22,332 nucleotides of DNA, from IMG/VR virus record IMGVR_UViG_3300007276_000340, positions 1-22,332 of that record; one strand, 5' to 3'. Positions within the stretch are counted from its first letter, which is position 1. Each line of letters starts with the position of its first letter. The DNA comes from a virus. Shown here piece by piece: positions 5,682 to 14,000 of the stretch. A model generated the notes under the pieces. That model made no database searches. It was not told the DNA's origin and worked only from the letters and a program-made list of their open reading frames with translations. Position numbers and translations under genes: made by a program.

Positions 5682-5748
5682 CACAAACCTACTTATAGCA
5701 GGCAATAAAAAACCCCCATTGGAGCGATCCAGTGGGGGTTTCTTCGTT
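5682..5748. other. Only substantial intergenic interval in the window
   Basis: 67 bases between the converging modules. It contains the terminator described above and no further ORF, promoter or RNA that I can support. All other junctions are overlaps or gaps of a few bases. Confidence 0.9.
5710..5741. terminator. Bidirectional intrinsic terminator between convergent operons
   Basis: Inverted repeat with arms 5710-5722 and 5729-5741 (13 pairs, one T-G wobble, six-base loop AGCGAT) containing a run of five C-G pairs. On the minus strand the stem is followed by TTTTTTATTG, a canonical U-tract; on the plus strand by TTTCTTCGTTT. It lies between the kinase stop (5681) and the stop of the last minus-strand gene (5749), so it can end transcription of both the metabolic and the structural units. 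Confidence 0.93.
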
Positions 5749-5991
5749 TCAGTCTTCAGTTCTAGTCCTTTCCTCAAGGTGGGCAACGATAAGTGCAAGG
5801 GCATGTAGCTCTTTCACTATACTTTTGTCGTCCTCCTTCAACATAGCTATATCATCCGCATTAGAGTTAACCCCGAAAGCCAACCCCGCTATGAATACAG
5901 CCACCATGACAAATGCCCCGACAACACCCAAGGCTATCTCCAGAGACTCCCATATAGTTGACTTCTTATCCAAGTAATCTCTGACCGTCAT
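5749..5991 (-). CDS. Small membrane protein with C-terminal coiled coil (lysis candidate)
   Basis: 80 residues from ATG at 5991, which forms an ATGA overlap with the preceding stop and has GGTGG at 5998-6002 six bases upstream; the longer start at 6009 lacks both. The N-terminus (MTVRDYLDKKSTIWESLE) carries Arg and two Lys, then one long hydrophobic helix (about 18-41, ALGVVGAFVMVAVFIAGLAF), then an acidic helical stretch with heptad-like hydrophobics (MLKEDDKSIVKELHALALIV) ending RTRTED. The charge pattern predicts N-in/C-out. It is the last gene of the late unit, where T7-like phages often place a holin or spanin-like gene. A holin with one membrane segment, an i-spanin-like protein, or a membrane anchor are all possible; I cannot choose. 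Confidence 0.75.
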   Translation of the reverse strand: MTVRDYLDKKSTIWESLEIALGVVGAFVMVAVFIAGLAFGVNSNADDIAMLKEDDKSIVKELHALALIVAHLEERTRTED

Positions 5992-6833
5992 GCTGTACCA
6001 CCATCCCATGCTGAAAAGCCTGCTGGCTTTGTGTTAACAAAATTAGCAGCGCCCCAGTTAGTTGTACACTGACCACCCCCGTTCATACCCATTCCTGTGA
6101 ACCAGATCTTAGAAGCTGGCAGTGCCCCCGCGTACACGGTGTATACTCCTGTACTGCTAGGTATCACACCAAAGGTGAGGTTGTCCAGATCAGCAACAAT
6201 CATCACAGTATCGCCTGTTACACCTGATATCATATCAGCGTCTACAGCTGTAGCTACGTTGTTGTTATAGAACCTGCCATCACCTAAGTAGGCGAAGCTA
6301 GATGTTGTCTGCCCATATACCTGAGTAGTCAACCTAGTCCGTGAGATGCCAAAACGCATATCGTTGGTGTTGTGCACCCTGTCTTGGTTGTACGTCACCT
6401 CATACACCCACTTTCCTGTGGCGTGGGTAGATCCCGTGTCACCATAACGCTTCTCCCAATTGCCACCGTTCCATGTAGCCACTGTGTTCCCTTCCGACAG
6501 GGCCATAGCGGTTCCGTAGACAGTGGTCTCCCAAGCTAGGCCATCTCCGCCTGTTGGGAGGGGTGGGGGTGGTGGTTGGTTGAACAGACTGTACGCTATC
6601 TCAGGGAAGTTGTCCCCCGTAGCGCCCTCGCCTACCCACACCTGCAACATACACTCAGGGACGTTCGTCGCTGTGCCCAACTCTAGGTAGCACTCCTCTA
6701 TAGTGTTCTTAGTAGCCCCCAGTACCTCCCTCAGCCACCTCAACTCCAACCAACCTATGTTATCATAGGTTCTGACATCATCTAACGTGGCCGCCAGATA
6801 CTCATACTTTGCTTCTGTTAGTGCTTTAGCCAT
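5988..6833 (-). CDS. SPRY-domain tail/receptor-binding protein candidate
   Basis: 281 residues. The N-terminal part (1-85) is helical and resembles an attachment module, followed by a proline hinge (residues 87-93, PPPPPLP). The C-terminal part (about 95-281) reads as a SPRY/B30.2-type beta sandwich: GKWVYEVTY (140-148), MRFGISRT (159-166), DGRFYNNN (185-192), TVMIVADLDNLTFGVI (209-224), and near the end NWGAANFVNTKPAGFSAW. This ordered pattern (strand, GI motif, 'YNNG'-like motif, 'V..DLD...F', final 'NFG..F....P.GF') is familiar from SPRY domains found in phage tail fibres. It probably binds a surface ligand on the host. ATG 6833 overlaps the upstream stop as TAATG, indicating coupling. Assignment is from motif pattern, not a profile search. 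Confidence 0.72.
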   Translation of the reverse strand: MAKALTEAKYEYLAATLDDVRTYDNIGWLELRWLREVLGATKNTIEECYLELGTATNVPECMLQVWVGEGATGDNFPEIAYSLFNQPPPPPLPTGGDGLAWETTVYGTAMALSEGNTVATWNGGNWEKRYGDTGSTHATGKWVYEVTYNQDRVHNTNDMRFGISRTRLTTQVYGQTTSSFAYLGDGRFYNNNVATAVDADMISGVTGDTVMIVADLDNLTFGVIPSSTGVYTVYAGALPASKIWFTGMGMNGGGQCTTNWGAANFVNTKPAGFSAWDGGTA

Positions 6834-7729
6834 TAGCCTGTCGTCCCCCGTTTTTTCCAGTATAGGTGTTCAGCTACCTCGAAGCTATCAGTTGTAATAG
6901 CTGGCGAGAAGGTGTAGTAAAGCTGAAAAAGAATCTCCCTTGTCGTCTTCGTCGTATTCAGTGGCAACAAAAGTCGGTCTATTGCCCAAAGCCTCTCCGC
7001 CTCGGGCAAGGTCATGTTTGGGCCTGGGGTCGTTGCACCTCTTATGGCAATGTCCGCAAGATAGTACCTCCTCTTTAACTCGTTCAAACTCCTCTTAGGG
7101 GAATACTCATTGAGAGCTGCTCTAATTGCCTGTTCTCGGAAGAACTCCGTCCCCTGCCTGCTGGTGATACCACCTATGGCGTACTGATAGCTGATCTCCA
7201 CCCTAGGAATAACTACAATGTGATTAGAACTGAGTACGGCAAAGCCCATCTGGAAGTTTTGGTTAGTCCGGTAGTCAAGAACATCTCGTGTTGGGTTAGA
7301 GGTGAAGAACTGCTGCTCAATCTCTACTATGTCGGAACCCCCGTCCGCAAACGGTATGCTATTGTCATTGCCGATAGCTATGTTGAGTGTACCCCAGTCG
7401 TTCTGGTACGACTGATTCTCTAGGTTTATGATAACAGTGCCAGTCTTCTCCTCCGTCTTTAGAAGGCCCAGCTGCGTCTTGACACGCACACCAGTTATGG
7501 CGGTGGTCTCAACTGGGAACTCATCATCTGCATTAACCATCAGGTTTATGACATCAGGTGGGTTTTTACTAACAAGTGCGGAGACTCCGTACCCATCATC
7601 TGCCACCGTCGGCACGGGGAATGGCGTTCCAGCCATATCGTCTCTAGTGTTAATGAACTCTGTGCCTACGAAGCTTCCGCTGACTGTGGTTATAGTAGGT
7701 ATAAGATACCTTGTCCAATAAGAAGCCAC
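6833..7729 (-). CDS. Hypothetical virion protein (late operon)
   Basis: 298 residues from GTG at 7729, which forms a TAGTG overlap with the upstream stop; GGAGG lies 9 bases upstream. No signal peptide or membrane segment. The first two-thirds is rich in beta-forming, Asp/Asn/Thr-containing sequence (VINLMVNADDEFPVETTA, TGTVIINLENQSYQNDWG), while the last third is helical with basic stretches (EYSPKRSLNELKRRYYLADI, WAIDRLLLPLNTTKTTREIL). I do not recognise a family. Position directly before the SPRY protein and after structural genes suggests a tail-associated structural protein or a fibre partner/assembly factor; that is inference from context only. Confidence 0.75.
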   Translation of the reverse strand: MASYWTRYLIPTITTVSGSFVGTEFINTRDDMAGTPFPVPTVADDGYGVSALVSKNPPDVINLMVNADDEFPVETTAITGVRVKTQLGLLKTEEKTGTVIINLENQSYQNDWGTLNIAIGNDNSIPFADGGSDIVEIEQQFFTSNPTRDVLDYRTNQNFQMGFAVLSSNHIVVIPRVEISYQYAIGGITSRQGTEFFREQAIRAALNEYSPKRSLNELKRRYYLADIAIRGATTPGPNMTLPEAERLWAIDRLLLPLNTTKTTREILFQLYYTFSPAITTDSFEVAEHLYWKKRGTTG

Positions 7730-8208
7730 TATATCTTACCTCCACCAAAATTGACAACACCAGGGTGGGACATGACCTTCCCCTGCTTCCTGTCAGGGCT
7801 TCTGCCTAAGGCCCGCCCTGGATTATCTTTGATCTTGTCCTTTGCCTTAGTGTACAGGTTAGCGGGTAAGTCCCCCTCCTCAAATACACCAAGAAGCGTG
7901 TCAGCGTGAACCTCATGCTCAAGGGTCTGCTCCAATAAGTACAGCAGCAGGTCTCTGGGGTACAGCGCCCTTACCCTCGGCACAGCCAGAAGGAATACAC
8001 CTAAGGTGGCTAGCTTCTCTCGATTACCACACTGATCCCAGTAGGTCTTGAGGGTAGCTGATCGACGCCTAGCTGGGTTGAACCACTGAAGCGTATCATC
8101 ACAGTTACGGCACTCCGCAGGGTCTTCGGGGGCTATGCCCAGCTCTGCACACGTACCGTATGCCAGCTGAAACACCTCCCACGCATTACTTTCTAGTGTT
8201 ATGTCCAT
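7729..8208 (-). CDS. Hypothetical Cys-containing late protein
   Basis: 159 residues from ATG at 8208, in a TAATG overlap with the upstream lipoprotein stop. Not recognised. The N-terminal half has four cysteines (C20, C33-x-x-C36, C60), a possible zinc site, next to a basic patch (NPARRRSATLKTYW). The middle is strongly helical and hydrophobic (LATLGVFLLAVPRVRALYPRDLLLYLLEQTLEHEV, about 66-100), too charged for a membrane segment. The C-terminus is basic and flexible (KAKDKIKDNPGRALGRSPDRKQGK). Position between a spanin-like gene and tail-fibre-like genes gives no firm clue. It could be a structural, chaperone or fibre-assembly protein. Confidence 0.7.
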   Translation of the reverse strand: MDITLESNAWEVFQLAYGTCAELGIAPEDPAECRNCDDTLQWFNPARRRSATLKTYWDQCGNREKLATLGVFLLAVPRVRALYPRDLLLYLLEQTLEHEVHADTLLGVFEEGDLPANLYTKAKDKIKDNPGRALGRSPDRKQGKVMSHPGVVNFGGGKI

Positions 8209-8594
8209 TACCCCTTACCCCTGATTAGTATCGTGAAGAACCTGCGAGTCCCCGTTGCCAGCCCAATAAACATCTTGCCAGGGTCTGGTATAGCCCACCC
8301 AGCTAGCAGGCAGATCAAGCCCAGCTGCCACCAAGGCATGCGGTTCAGGTTGTTGATCACCTCACCACTCTGATTGTTTGTGTCTGAGCCTACGTTAGTC
8401 TCGACTGTGTTGTTTATATCACCATCAGCATTGTCGATGTCTGGGCTGACCTCAAGAGAGGGGCCACCCCCTCCCCCCACTAGACTACCCGCCAAGCTTG
8501 TTGCCAAGGTTCCGCATCCGCTTAACAAGACGCTTGCTACGAGCACCCACCTGAGAGTACCAATCGCTGTCAACCATTTGGTTCGCTGCTTCAT
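8208..8594 (-). CDS. Lipoprotein with C-terminal membrane segment: candidate unimolecular spanin
   Basis: 128 residues from ATG at 8594 (AAGGTGA at 8600-8606, 5-base spacer); a GTG at 8603 is less well placed. The N-terminus is a classic lipoprotein signal: basic MKQRTKW, a hydrophobic core (WVLVASV) and lipobox LLSG-Cys27. A Gly then Asp/Asn-rich linker of about 60 residues follows, then a hydrophobic segment (about 88-102, WWQLGLICLLAGWAI) and a basic tail (TRRFFTILIRGKG). An outer-membrane lipid anchor plus an inner-membrane C-terminal helix in one chain is the architecture of u-spanins such as T1 gp11, which fuse inner and outer membranes in the last lysis step. Adjacency to the GH24 lysozyme fits. 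The first 36-37 codons are overprinted on the lysozyme's 3' end. The linker is short for a spanin, so some doubt remains. Confidence 0.72.
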   Translation of the reverse strand: MKQRTKWLTAIGTLRWVLVASVLLSGCGTLATSLAGSLVGGGGGPSLEVSPDIDNADGDINNTVETNVGSDTNNQSGEVINNLNRMPWWQLGLICLLAGWAIPDPGKMFIGLATGTRRFFTILIRGKG

Positions 8595-9333
8595 CAAAGT
8601 CACCTTTATCCAAGGCTTCCCACATCTTAGCGAAACCTACTCCCTTCTTTCGTCCCGCCCTTGTGGCTCCGAGGTTAAACACCATGTTGATTATGATGTC
8701 TCTAGCCTCAGACGGCAGCTTAGTGTCCCCTATGAGCCTGTCGGCGTCCTTAATATGGGACTTAGCATCCTCTTGCCACCACTCTTCGACCACTTTCTCT
8801 GGTATGACCGACCCCTCTGGGTACTTCTTGCGCTCCGCGGCAGTCATGGCATGCCCGTGCCCGCCTGTCAGCACTGGTGGGGTAGCTGTGTCTAGGTAGG
8901 AGACATGCTTACCACCCACCTTGCGTGTACCCTCGTCAGAGAGGATCTGCTTGGTCTCAGGCTCCATATCAGGAGTCCACTTAGGGTCGTCAACTGCCAC
9001 TTTCTGCTCAACAAGAGCTGAATCACTGGCTGGTAGCTCCGTACTGTCCACTGACGGGCCGCCCCAGTCCATCTCCCATGGTAGCATACCCTTAGCCAAA
9101 CCTGCCGCAGAGGGCTGTACAGGGGCTGTCACGAGGGTCTCAGTAGGAGGGGCGCTAGACATAACCGGCAAGTCTGCCATCATAGCTATCCCCTCCTGTC
9201 TGAGTTCTTCAGATGCTCCATCCCCCTCTGCTAGGGTAGCCTCGCTCTCAGCGACCAAGGCTTCCCGCTCTGCAGTGACCTCATCCACCGTATTGGACAC
9301 GAAGTCCCAAGGCATTTCCCACGGTTTTCTCAT
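8485..9333 (-). CDS. GH24 (T4-type) lysozyme with virion-like N-terminal extension
   Basis: 282 residues. Residues about 130-278 match the T4 lysozyme fold: a catalytic Glu candidate E134 (SDEG), D148 in SYLDTATPP and T156 in VLTGGHGH, then EARDIIINMVFNLG (209-222), GFAKMWEALDKGDFDEAA (233-250) and WYSQVGARSKRLVKRMRNLG, the last very like the T4 enzyme's C-terminal helices. It would hydrolyse the MurNAc-GlcNAc bond. E-to-D spacing is longer than in T4 lysozyme (14 against 9), indicating a small insertion. Residues 1-125 are disordered and acidic, with two copies of a PWEM-x-W motif (4-9 and 85-90) seen in no other protein here. No signal peptide. It may be a virion-carried wall hydrolase, the lysis endolysin, or both. 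TAATG overlap with the upstream gene. Confidence 0.85.
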   Translation of the reverse strand: MRKPWEMPWDFVSNTVDEVTAEREALVAESEATLAEGDGASEELRQEGIAMMADLPVMSSAPPTETLVTAPVQPSAAGLAKGMLPWEMDWGGPSVDSTELPASDSALVEQKVAVDDPKWTPDMEPETKQILSDEGTRKVGGKHVSYLDTATPPVLTGGHGHAMTAAERKKYPEGSVIPEKVVEEWWQEDAKSHIKDADRLIGDTKLPSEARDIIINMVFNLGATRAGRKKGVGFAKMWEALDKGDFDEAANQMVDSDWYSQVGARSKRLVKRMRNLGNKLGG

Positions 9334-11057
9334 TACCTAGCCTCCGCCCAGCTTTCTTTGTTGTTAGGGTCACCGCCAAGGTACACGAAAGGGGTTCCAT
9401 CCTCGGAATTAACCACCATACCACGTACTGGCGCACCGTCACCCTGCTCTTCTGCAACTTGGTTGGGTACGAACGTAGCCATGTTGTCATTGAACCACTT
9501 GTTGTAGTCTGTTGTGCCCTCTAGGTGGGCAGCAGCCTTGACATACTCAGTCAGAGTCTTGGACGCAGTCTTGTTTAAGTCCGAGGCATCCTTGCGGAGT
9601 CCTACCACGCCCAACAGTGAGTCCTCTCCGATAAAGACAGCTCTACCACCACGCCACTCCAAGGAGACACGCTCGGTATTGTCTACTTCGTTCTCTAAGA
9701 CCTTCATCAGCTGGCCGCGGTAGGTGCCACCAAGCATCTCAGAGGCGCGTTGACGCATCTCCCCCAGCTCCTCAGGGTGGGCAACGATATACTCACCTAC
9801 CTTGGGGTCAGAGAAGAAGGACATAGCCCTTGCGTTCTCTTTTGGGTTAGACCGAGTCATTGCGTATGAGCCAGCCCCTCTTAGCATCTTGTTCATGACA
9901 CCATTCAAGTCAGCCTCACCCTTCTCACTCAGGTTACCTGTGCGCCAGTCTGCTATGCTCGGGGTAAGTACTTGAGTCTTTAACCCATTGACAAACAAGG
10001 CATTATCCAAAGCACCTATGTTAGTGTCAGGGCGCTCTGACCCACCTTGTGATTCACTCAACCCAGCTGCTACAAAGTCAGACAAAGCTAGAGACATGTC
10101 AACTGTAGCGGCAGCTGCAGGGTTTCTGAACTTAAGCTCACCAGCTATCAGTATAGCTTGAGCCTCAGGGCTTTCCTGAGCAAAAGCCCATGTCATCTTA
10201 ATTTGCATCTCCTTCATAAGAGCTGAAGCAGTCTCAGTGGTGTACTTACCCTGTAGGGTATCCACTTGTATCTGCCTCATACTAGTAAGGGCATTGATAG
10301 TGGCTGTAGCTAAGGGCTGGTCTTCACTCGCCAAGGGTATAGACTGAATACCCGCTATGTGCTTCTCAGAGGTCTGCATAATAGCACTGACCTTCTGCTC
10401 TGGGGTCATGTCAGGGTTGTCAGAAATCGTCTGATAAGACTGGACGTACATCTGGGTACGGCCCTTGGCTATACGACTCACTGTCTGCCTGGCTTCAAGC
10501 CTGTCTTTGACACGACCTGAGTTCAGCTCAGCCTCCATGCCCTCAACATGTATCATACGCTGTATGTCAGCATCAACCTTCTCAGGTGGGTCGAAGGGAC
10601 TGGCGAAGCCTTCATCGAAAGCCTCTTGCCTCTTCTTCTCTTGAGCGCGTTGTGTTTTGCCTACGTCTTTAACCAACGGCCCCAGACCAGATGGCTCGAC
10701 GTAGGACTTATGAGCGGTAGCTAGCGCAGCACTGGCCGTAGGGTTACTAGCTGAGTACTCGCGGTAGATGGTGCGAGACAGAGCTTGAGCCTCCGACAAG
10801 CGGCTAGGGTCTTGCTCGACCATATCTGCTAGCTGTTGTTGTTTACTTAGATAGTGACCAACCACCTTGTTGTTGAACTGGGTAGCTGAGCTGCTAGCTG
10901 CAGTGGCTCTCCGGTTCGCTGTGAAGATGGTGGCTACATCGGCTATACCGTTAGCCAAGGCAGCCCCAACCCCACTGTTTCCAGCAGGGTCAGCTACGCC
11001 TGAGGAGCCACTAACTGGGGACTGCTCTGTTGGTGCTGTTTTAGTAAAATCAGTCAT
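9333..11057 (-). CDS. Internal virion (ejection) protein, gp15-position
   Basis: 574 residues from ATG at 11057, with GAGGA at 11063-11067 and 6 bases of spacer; a TTG at 11069 is less likely. The start overlaps the upstream stop by 8 bases. The protein is long, soluble, predominantly helical, Ala/Gln/Glu/Thr-rich, with a low-complexity N-terminus (APTEQSPVSGSSGVADPAGN), repeated 'Q-T-I/Q-T-S' helices and no recognised catalytic motif. A modest Gly/Ala-rich stretch lies near residue 30. Lying between the giant protein and the lysozyme, downstream of a gp14-like gene, it matches the place of T7 ejection proteins that leave the capsid first and build the trans-envelope channel. Family identity is by context; I do not see a sequence motif that proves it. 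Confidence 0.75.
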   Translation of the reverse strand: MTDFTKTAPTEQSPVSGSSGVADPAGNSGVGAALANGIADVATIFTANRRATAASSSATQFNNKVVGHYLSKQQQLADMVEQDPSRLSEAQALSRTIYREYSASNPTASAALATAHKSYVEPSGLGPLVKDVGKTQRAQEKKRQEAFDEGFASPFDPPEKVDADIQRMIHVEGMEAELNSGRVKDRLEARQTVSRIAKGRTQMYVQSYQTISDNPDMTPEQKVSAIMQTSEKHIAGIQSIPLASEDQPLATATINALTSMRQIQVDTLQGKYTTETASALMKEMQIKMTWAFAQESPEAQAILIAGELKFRNPAAAATVDMSLALSDFVAAGLSESQGGSERPDTNIGALDNALFVNGLKTQVLTPSIADWRTGNLSEKGEADLNGVMNKMLRGAGSYAMTRSNPKENARAMSFFSDPKVGEYIVAHPEELGEMRQRASEMLGGTYRGQLMKVLENEVDNTERVSLEWRGGRAVFIGEDSLLGVVGLRKDASDLNKTASKTLTEYVKAAAHLEGTTDYNKWFNDNMATFVPNQVAEEQGDGAPVRGMVVNSEDGTPFVYLGGDPNNKESWAEAR

Positions 11058-14000
11058 CGTCTTCCTCAAATGTAGGTTCTTCTAGCATGCCTCTAAGGCG
11101 TTGCTTATGGCTGTCAGATAGGTTGGTCTGGTTGATCAACCTTCGGAAGTCATCCTCACCAGCTGAGCCGAATGCCTCTAGCATCTTGAGATAGACTATA
11201 CCATCCCCAGACTTAACACTCCTGCTCATGTTCTTGAGCATCTCCTGCAGATAGAAGTTCTTATGCTCTTCTGGCAAGTAAGACTGTACCACTGACAAGT
11301 AGTTGTATACAAACTCCTTATCGACTAGGCTAATACCATCGTCCCTAAGTACCTTGACAAGCTCGTTGTGTGTCACCTTAGCGTCAGCCTCCAAGTCCTT
11401 CCGTATCTCATGTATCTGTTTCTGGACTAGGAAGTTTGAGGAGGAGGTAGCTGTGGAGAAACCCAACGCAACTGCGAAGGCTTCCGCGGATGTCACATCA
11501 TCATCCATGATGTAGGTTGAGCTGCTGTTCATCAAGACGCCCTTCTTCTTGGCTGCGTACGCACGCATGGTGTTGCTATATCCAGAGCTTATACTCAGCC
11601 AGGCATCCATAGCCTGCATCACATCCTTCGGCTCTGCACTGCCAGTCCAGATGTCCGCCACTACACTCAAGCTCTTCTTAAAAGCATCAGTGATACGTGG
11701 GTTCTTTCCGAAGAAGAGCTGACCACCAGGGCTGGCTGCTATGACGTTGTACGTACCTTCGTTGAGCATTGTGTCGAGAAAGCTCAAAGATGCGTACATG
11801 TCGAAGGGAGCTAAGCCACCCCAGTCTACTCGACTGACTGGCCCACCCTCCTCATCAAACACCTGCAAGCCCCTGTTCAGCATGTACGCCTCAGTGCCAT
11901 CCATCAGCAGACGCCTCAGATCTTCGTCCTCCTCACGAGCAATAGATTGCAAGAAGGCGTCTACGACAACACCAGCTGCGGCTGTTGGTACGCCATAGGC
12001 TAATGTGTTAAAGGCAGCCAGCTTGAGCTTCTGAGTCTTACTAAGGCCACGGTTAGTGGTAGCTGTTGTGGCGAACTTGTGTGGAACCTGCTGGTACTGC
12101 ATTACCATCCCAAGCATGTTCTGGTTGTAGGGCATGTCTCCTGCTTTGTTCATAGAGTAGGTGAAGTTCCTAGCAGCGCCCAAGGCAGAGTCCACGATCT
12201 CCTGATCGAAGGTCTTGCCCCCTTTCCCAGCCGCTGCCAACGCCTTCTGCTCCATGTTGTAGAACGTCAAGAAAGCTGACAGCAAGTTCATACGCTCACC
12301 AGCATCAAAGCCAGCCTTACGTATGCCAGAGGTCACCTTACCCATTGCGCTTAAACCCGCATTGTGAGAACCCATCATGGACTCAGCTAGGTAGGTCAAG
12401 TCACCTTGGAGTAGGTTGGTCTTGTCAACAGCCTGCCACACACCACTACGATCTACCAGATCTACTAGTGCTGCAGTCACTGCCAAGTCCTGGCCCATGG
12501 CCTCCTCGACCAACTTGCGTGCTTCCGCCATCCCACCAGCACTCTTACCACCCTTAAGGTAGGGTTGGTATAAGCTCTTGTACAGAACCACTGAAGCCAT
12601 CTGCTTCGGCAGTTGTGTCATAACAAACTTAGGTGCTATGGCTAAGAGCTGCAGACCTTGGTGGCTCTGTATCAGGAGCTGACGCAGAGGGTTAAGGGCT
12701 AAGTAAGCGTGGAAGCTGCTGTTCTTGAGCAACCCTGTCGGACTTACTTCAGACAGGTGGCTCATCATGCGTTCAGCATCGTCAGCTAGCGGCAGACTTG
12801 ATTCGCCAAAGGCGTTAGCCATACCTCGGAACAAGGACTTAGAAGCATCGTCCAAGGAGTTGTTATAGCCATTCTGCATGTATTGGATATACTCGAAAGT
12901 AGTCCTTGCATCACCTAGCTCCTTGTCTCCGTGCTTACCCTCTTTGGTTATCTCTGTCCACTTGTTGGGGAAGCTAACCTCACCATTTACCTTAGGTGTG
13001 AGGTGCCCATACTGCGCATTGAAGCGGGCCTTCATACCCTCAAGCCAGTCACGCATAGCTATCCGCTCAGAGAGGGATCGTGCTGCACGCTGCATGGATT
13101 GGGCGGGGTCTTCTACGTGGGCATCCAAGGCGTTGACGTTAGAGGTTGCATCAGCATCCTCAAGGCGTTTGCCACGGAACCTAGTTGCAATCCGGCCATT
13201 GGCCTGATGCAGATCCCAGTAGTCATCACTCCCTATGTCAATCTCTTTCTTGTCGCCACGAACACCACCCCAAGAGGCTACACCATCTTCAGATGTGATA
13301 CCATCTTCACGAGCCAGCTTCTCCAGCATACGCCGAGCGGTCTTCTGATCCTTGGCTACAGCCACTGCCTTGTTGTACAGGAAGTTGCCCTTAGTATCCG
13401 TGACGTTACGTGTAACAAACACTGGGTTCTTATAGGTTACAGTGTAGTATCCTTCACGATAGGACAGGACATGGTCAAGTGAGCTAAGCTTGCGGAAGTA
13501 ATCAGACTTGGTGTTCGAGGACATTATGTACTCTATGATCTCACCACCGTCGTCGATGCCAGCACGCAACCGAGCCACAGTACCACCACTCTCATACAAG
13601 GCGTTAAGCTCGTTCTTGCTCAGGCGGGTTACCTCATCTGTTACTGGGTTATATACTCTGTTATTATTATATATACCTTTCTCTAATGGTTTAGCATAGA
13701 GCCTACTACCATTTACCCCATCAGTGAGTACCATGTACCCATTAGCATCTAAGCTCCTGATAAGATCCATGTTCTCTAGGAGGTATGCTGTGTCCCAGTA
13801 CTCTCGGAACTTCTGAAGAGCTTGTATTGAGTTTCGGTCATACCCATTAGCAGACAGGTAGTTAGTGTTTAACTTAAGACCCTCTCGGTTAGCTTCATGG
13901 ATGTACTCAGTTATCATCTCCTTCTGGAGAGGGCTTGCTGACTTGTAGCGTCCGGCAAACTCCGAAGCTAGCTGCATGAACCCATCTTGTATACCAGCAG

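Follow-up and report, generated by a model that had tools for sequence, protein, structure and literature searches.

The prototype unimolecular spanin (u-spanin), gp11 of phage T1, has an N-terminal lipobox, a C-terminal transmembrane (TM) domain and no periplasmic cysteine, the last of these being a rule for u-spanins, and it belongs to a beta-rich family (PMC6139136). U-spanins are listed for phages SIO1, P12053L, VpV262, CW02, ICP2 and CHOED (PMC6139136), and cobavirus spanins are described as having a lipoprotein N-terminus and a C-terminal TM domain (PMC6775973). Overlapping genes are familiar from two-component spanins; in the embedded Rz/Rz1 of lambda and the overlapped lysB/lysC of P2 the lipoprotein starts in the +1 frame of the neighboring lysis gene, and both frames encode spanin subunits (PMC6139136, PMC3556154).

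Here we analyze a 22.3-kb viral fragment (IMG/VR) from a marine podophage of the Zobellviridae/cobavirus-like type, referred to over its whole length as the window. We consider it very probable, on sequence grounds, that a u-spanin has its start codon, signal peptide and lipobox written, in the +1 frame, into the 3' end of the lysozyme gene. The position of the lipoprotein start recalls Rz/Rz1 and lysB/lysC, whereas the two products differ in kind, being a folded GH24 enzyme and a single-protein spanin. The resemblance to T1 gp11 is one of predicted architecture, and the window protein is predicted to be disordered. SIO1 gp22 and the cobavirus u-spanins (ICBM1/2, P12053L; PHROG 30566) share with it a lipoprotein start, a short hydrophilic middle and a C-terminal hydrophobic segment with a GWxxPxP motif, as well as a place in the late arm near the endolysin (PMC6775973, PMC6139136); unlike the window gene, that of SIO1 gp22 starts outside any lysozyme gene. 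The u-spanin encoded by gene 2 of Vibrio phage ICP2 matches the same family profile, and its signal peptide lies 71 nt within the preceding gene, but that gene encodes N-terminal TM segments and a coiled-coil-like tail and no lysozyme.

Gene order and reading frames in the window

The plus strand of the window carries ribonucleotide reductase, exonuclease and nucleotide kinase genes, and the minus strand carries tail and internal virion protein genes. Along the minus strand, the genes for the internal virion proteins (1601 and 578 aa) are followed by those for the 282-aa lysozyme, the 128-aa lipoprotein and a 159-aa protein. The lysozyme ATG opens on the final base of the IVP-C gene, a one-base overlap, and the u-spanin stop and the start of the 159-aa gene also share one base (TAATG). 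The features of this region are as follows.

9333..11069, minus strand: gene for an IVP-C type internal virion protein, directly upstream of the lysozyme gene (phrog_18587; synteny)
8485..9333, minus strand: GH24 lysozyme, 282 aa; its N-terminus lacks a TM segment and carries a PW-rich extension of 120 aa (PHROG endolysin and virion-lysozyme matches)
8208..8594, minus strand: u-spanin-like lipoprotein, 128 aa, starting at ATG 8594 (translation, profile match and alignments)
7729..8208, minus strand: 159-aa gene with function unassigned, next after the u-spanin gene (ORF list)
8485..8594, minus strand: 110-nt overprint, with lysozyme codons 247-282 in frame 0 and u-spanin codons 1-36 in frame +1
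8600..8605, minus strand: u-spanin Shine-Dalgarno sequence AGGTGA, within the lysozyme gene (duplex energy -8.8 kcal/mol)
8517..8594, minus strand: signal peptide of 26 residues (KQRTK n-region plus hydrophobic core)
8514..8525, minus strand: lipobox LSGC, with the Cys27 codon at 8516-8514 (Cys invariant in family alignments)
8512..8532, minus strand: lysozyme motif RLVKRMR, read as VLLSGC in frame +1

The original prediction had a lipoprotein frame opening 110 nt inside the GH24 lysozyme gene in another frame, with a basic n-region, a hydrophobic core and an LLSG-Cys string all encoded within the overlap, and translation bears this out, the frame being +1. The n-region is basic (KQRTK), LLSG-C occupies residues 23-27, and the Cys27 codon stands 31 nt ahead of the lysozyme gene end. 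The lipobox fits [LVI][ASTVI][GAS]C, and the +2 residue is Gly, so that there is no Asp at this position. The same 110 nt hold, as predicted, the last 36 lysozyme codons, in a region that aligns with the T4 lysozyme C-terminus: residues 207-275 of the window lysozyme match T4 lysozyme, with the C-terminus aligning to T4 residues 92-155. The further claim that no start lies past the lysozyme stop apart from a distant Met holds for ATG codons, the only later one being Met86, but overlooks GTG 8477 (Val40), just beyond the stop, which as a start would drop both signal peptide and lipobox. Two upstream options, GTG 8603 and TTG 8597, have weaker Shine-Dalgarno sequences than ATG 8594.

The same lysozyme/u-spanin overprint, always in the +1 frame, is found at three further loci: L003 (PQ867843; 125 nt), L028 (IMGVR 3300049904_000006; 107 nt) and L195 (IMGVR 3300008050_000183; 209 nt). 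Their overprinted lysozymes are diverged from that of the window, with identities to it of 36% (L003), 32% (L028) and 32% (L195). On the lysozyme alignment the u-spanin starts of the four loci are at most one codon apart, and in all four the lipobox is read from RL[IV]xRMR or the codons directly after it. The in-gene Shine-Dalgarno energies are -12.5 kcal/mol in L003 and -12.7 kcal/mol in L028.

Farther along the window, a strong 14-pair hairpin (5710-5741) lies where the convergent arms meet and is a probable two-way terminator. The final gene before it (5749-6009, minus strand) encodes an 86-aa protein with one TM segment and a coiled-coil-like tail, a candidate holin or other late membrane protein; a toxin pore domain in Pfam matches it weakly (E=0.0055, well short of the cut-off), which we attribute to its hydrophobic segment and regard as an artefact. 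Genes of similar TM plus coiled-coil layout come after the u-spanin gene in L001, L003, L028 and SIO1, and one ends the late arm of PA11.

The lysozyme partner

A Pfam search with the window lysozyme gave no match, though its relatives match PF00959, and the positions of its catalytic E, D and T were seen in alignment only. The N-terminal extension (9333-9060, minus strand) contains repeated PW-type motifs (PWEMPWDF, PWEMDWGG), which occur at the same place in the lysozymes of L001, L003 and L044, often after an N-terminal hydrophobic segment. Locus L195 has two GH24 lysozymes (L195:1269-2153 and L195:5078-5674), one downstream of the genes for internal virion proteins, the other exported and overprinted by the u-spanin gene over its 209 nt. 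A further locus, L006, was rejected as a relative, its lysozyme being an unrelated myophage one.

The window enzyme might be a virion-associated (ejection) lysozyme, with the endolysin encoded outside the 22-kb fragment, a reading that is compatible with the u-spanin overprint and that we regard as possible if rather doubtful. The absence of an N-terminal TM segment, the long PW-rich extension and the position immediately downstream of the genes for internal virion proteins are in its favor, as are PHROG matches that include an internal virion lysozyme and a best match to the L195 lysozyme next to the internal virion protein genes (44%, vs 32% for the exported one). Set against these, the overprinted orthologues in L003 and L028 carry a hydrophobic N-terminal segment of the kind found in exported or SAR endolysins, and in L195 it is the exported lysozyme, with its signal-like start, that is overprinted. 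Cobavirus endolysins likewise do without membrane anchors (PMC6775973), and no second lysozyme was seen in the window.

A GWxxPxP lipoprotein family

As sole query, the window lipoprotein found no convincing relative in the phage collection, IMG/VR, Pfam or PHROGs, and its relatives, in Vibrio, oyster-virome and IMG/VR phages, were reached only by following gene order around the large internal virion protein. Run against every ORF of approximately 64 loci, a profile of nine proteins that leaves out the window protein and includes SIO1 gp22 and ICP2 gene 2 matches the window ORF with E=4.3e-11; the pairwise match of the window ORF to SIO1 gp22 has E=3e-4. A scan for the family yielded 106 IMG/VR loci, and genome contigs scanned with the L028 u-spanin gave no match. 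The family is widespread in marine phages. Two C-terminal features join the N-terminal ones listed above.

8280..8300, minus strand: family signature GWAIPDP (GWxxPxP), with G99, W100, P103 and P105 invariant in 18 aligned proteins
8289..8333, minus strand: C-terminal hydrophobic segment WWQLGLICLLAGWAI, a predicted inner-membrane anchor (low-confidence AF2 helix 88-101; aligned segments in relatives)

The lipobox Cys and GWxxPxP are kept in 18 of 18 aligned proteins, none of which has Asp at +2, and neither the window protein nor its 17 relatives has a periplasmic Cys. Homology to the SIO1 u-spanin and to ICP2 (PMC6139136, PMC6775973) supports the predicted u-spanin assignment, with the function itself inferred. 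SIO1 gp22 is the sole ORF of the SIO1 lysis region that fits a u-spanin and is presumably the one listed for that phage. A two-component spanin does not describe the window locus, where the second frame is lysozyme and there is no i-spanin.

The genomic surroundings of the family are consistent with a role in lysis. In relatives the u-spanin gene adjoins lysozyme, M15-like peptidase or holin-like genes, and it follows the lysozyme or IVP-C gene. In the corresponding region, Citrobacter phage CVT22 (Zobellviridae) has an annotated i-spanin/o-spanin pair beside the endolysin; spanin genes, or pairs of ORFs resembling spanins, also occur in GP100, Pecta and Klyazma. The family also includes overlaps with another partner: at six loci (L087, L089, L090, L091, L092 and L094) the first 185-224 nt of the GWxxPxP u-spanin gene lie within the tail of a gene for a holin-like protein with two TM segments rather than within a lysozyme gene, and these loci have close relatives.

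The two proteins would both be translated from a polycistronic message late in infection. Sec would export the lipoprotein, which would then be lipidated and cleaved at Cys27 and, having Gly and not Asp at +2, be sorted to the outer membrane, with the C-terminal GWxxPxP segment placed in the inner membrane and the basic tail inside. After cleavage of the peptidoglycan, the membranes joined by the protein could be drawn together and the outer membrane disrupted. We infer lipidation, sorting, inner-membrane anchoring and membrane fusion from the architecture together with the published u-spanin model.

The overlap could be real coding and the protein still an outer-membrane lipoprotein of other use, e.g. 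in superinfection exclusion, with its C-terminal segment on the membrane surface, but we think this unlikely. Its appeal lies in the C-terminal segment: in the window protein this is short, approximately 15 residues and below the 18-residue hydropathy cut-off, and PxP and an amphipathic helix come after it. The u-spanin reading has further weak points. With pLDDT 60.7 and pTM 0.24, the AF2 model is too poor for a fold search, and its middle is disordered where T1 gp11 is described as having beta structure (PMC6139136); the predicted periplasmic part, approximately 57 disordered residues, would need nearly full extension to span the periplasm, and in several family members this part has only 28-40 residues. 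In the literature found, moreover, the spanin designation of the family rests on architecture, and this includes the SIO1/ICP2 lineage, the members of which are nonetheless published as u-spanins (PMC6139136, PMC6775973). In the L001, L003, ICP2 and SIO1 relatives the C-terminal segment does pass the 18-residue cut-off. In many genomes the gene has an endolysin or peptidase gene as its neighbor, and it sits where related phages carry i/o-spanins, which argues for the u-spanin reading.

PHROG 30566, a function-unknown family, has matches in L102 (E=1e-65), L119, L077, L113, L028 and L195, and several of the SIO1-type u-spanins that match it also weakly match PHROG 1804 (Rz-like spanin). The u-spanin start in L119, L077, L127 and many others is joined by one base to, or lies shortly after, a gene assigned by eye as an M15 peptidase-like endolysin.

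Double coding and its possible origin

The original prediction looked to homologues for conservation of both frames and for constraint in the overlap. The lipobox frame is indeed kept at the three further lysozyme loci, and the constraint is present as alternative-frame constraint across the four. In a sliding test we asked whether the +1 translations of the four anchored loci are more alike than expected from the lysozyme residues and codon usage. The two test windows covering the overlap gave z=5.1 and 5.4 for the +1 frame, which is open there in four of four loci, whereas those clear of the overlap gave non-significant values (z from -2.1 to 0.7), and no more than one locus has +1 open in them. 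At the overlap the +2 control frame reached z=2.5 (P=0.012), but it is never open. Common codon ancestry might raise the +1 score, but at this divergence no such rise is seen elsewhere in the gene. Codon identity at shared residues, on sparse data, is 9/15 in the overlap and not significantly higher than the 23/54 outside it; no close relative was found.

We also held the lysozyme residues fixed, redrew synonymous codons, and scored draws for an open +1 frame, a lipobox and an equally hydrophobic core. All three were obtained in 0.09% of draws for the window (P=9e-4) and in 0.0005-0.045% for L003, L028 and L195 (per-locus P down to 5e-6). Because these P values are low and the frame is conserved in relatives, the sequence evidence confirms the same-strand overprint as genuine and beyond chance.

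Among 50 lysozymes without a neighboring u-spanin, the +1 frame is open across the overlap stretch in six, and LLTGC is read in two. That the window protein instead starts past the lysozyme stop (at GTG 8477 or Met86), with the in-lysozyme lipobox a chance by-product of the RLVKRMR codons, is very improbable: these two cases show that a lipobox-like string comes cheaply at the motif, but their core is less hydrophobic (1.2-1.4 vs 1.6-2.3 in the overprinted loci) and no GWxxPxP protein goes with it, nearly all complete family members examined carry both signal peptide and lipobox, and ATG 8594 has a strong Shine-Dalgarno sequence ahead of it and a conserved +1 frame.

With the start at ATG 8594, the motif itself suggests a route by which the lipobox arose, since RL[IV]xRMR in the +1 frame spells LLxGC, a latent lipobox. 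The latent lipobox would have come first, at the lysozyme motif, and the reading frame upstream of it would then have been turned into a signal peptide. The lysozyme frame is likely the older of the two, because its helix is conserved across GH24 and aligns with T4 lysozyme as far as residue 155, and the signal peptide the newcomer in the overlap. In other family members the start falls 4 nt inside a lysozyme or peptidase gene or a little beyond one, or it lies within an internal virion or holin-like gene; the u-spanin gene start is therefore mobile. With a long-branched lysozyme tree, the hypothesis that the overlap arose once was not rejected (p-AU 0.55), a result that does not establish one origin across the four loci. 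On balance we favor the view that phages exploited the latent LLxGC of RL[IV]xRMR to give the lysis gene that follows its membrane-targeting signal by overprinting, that four deeply diverged loci retain the double coding, and that translation of the two genes may be tied.

While u-spanins as a kind are already known, neither the GWxxPxP signature nor a lysozyme/u-spanin overprint is described in the literature found, in agreement with the novelty suggested at the outset; embedded and overlapped i/o-spanins, also +1, are the known analogue (PMC3556154, PMC6139136). One stretch of DNA here probably serves two lysis proteins, the signal peptide of one lying atop a conserved helix of the folded enzyme, and the latent lipobox offers a visible route of origin for an overprinted signal. 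The overlap is also a clean system for studying constraint between two frames, and the GWxxPxP profile provides a simple finder for marine-phage spanins filed as unknown function (PHROG 30566). The family further shows how u-spanins come to be mis-annotated: in L003 the deposited start of PQ867843 ORF63 (L003:12527-12784) omits the entire signal peptide, whose translation probably begins at ATG 12419, within the lysozyme gene.
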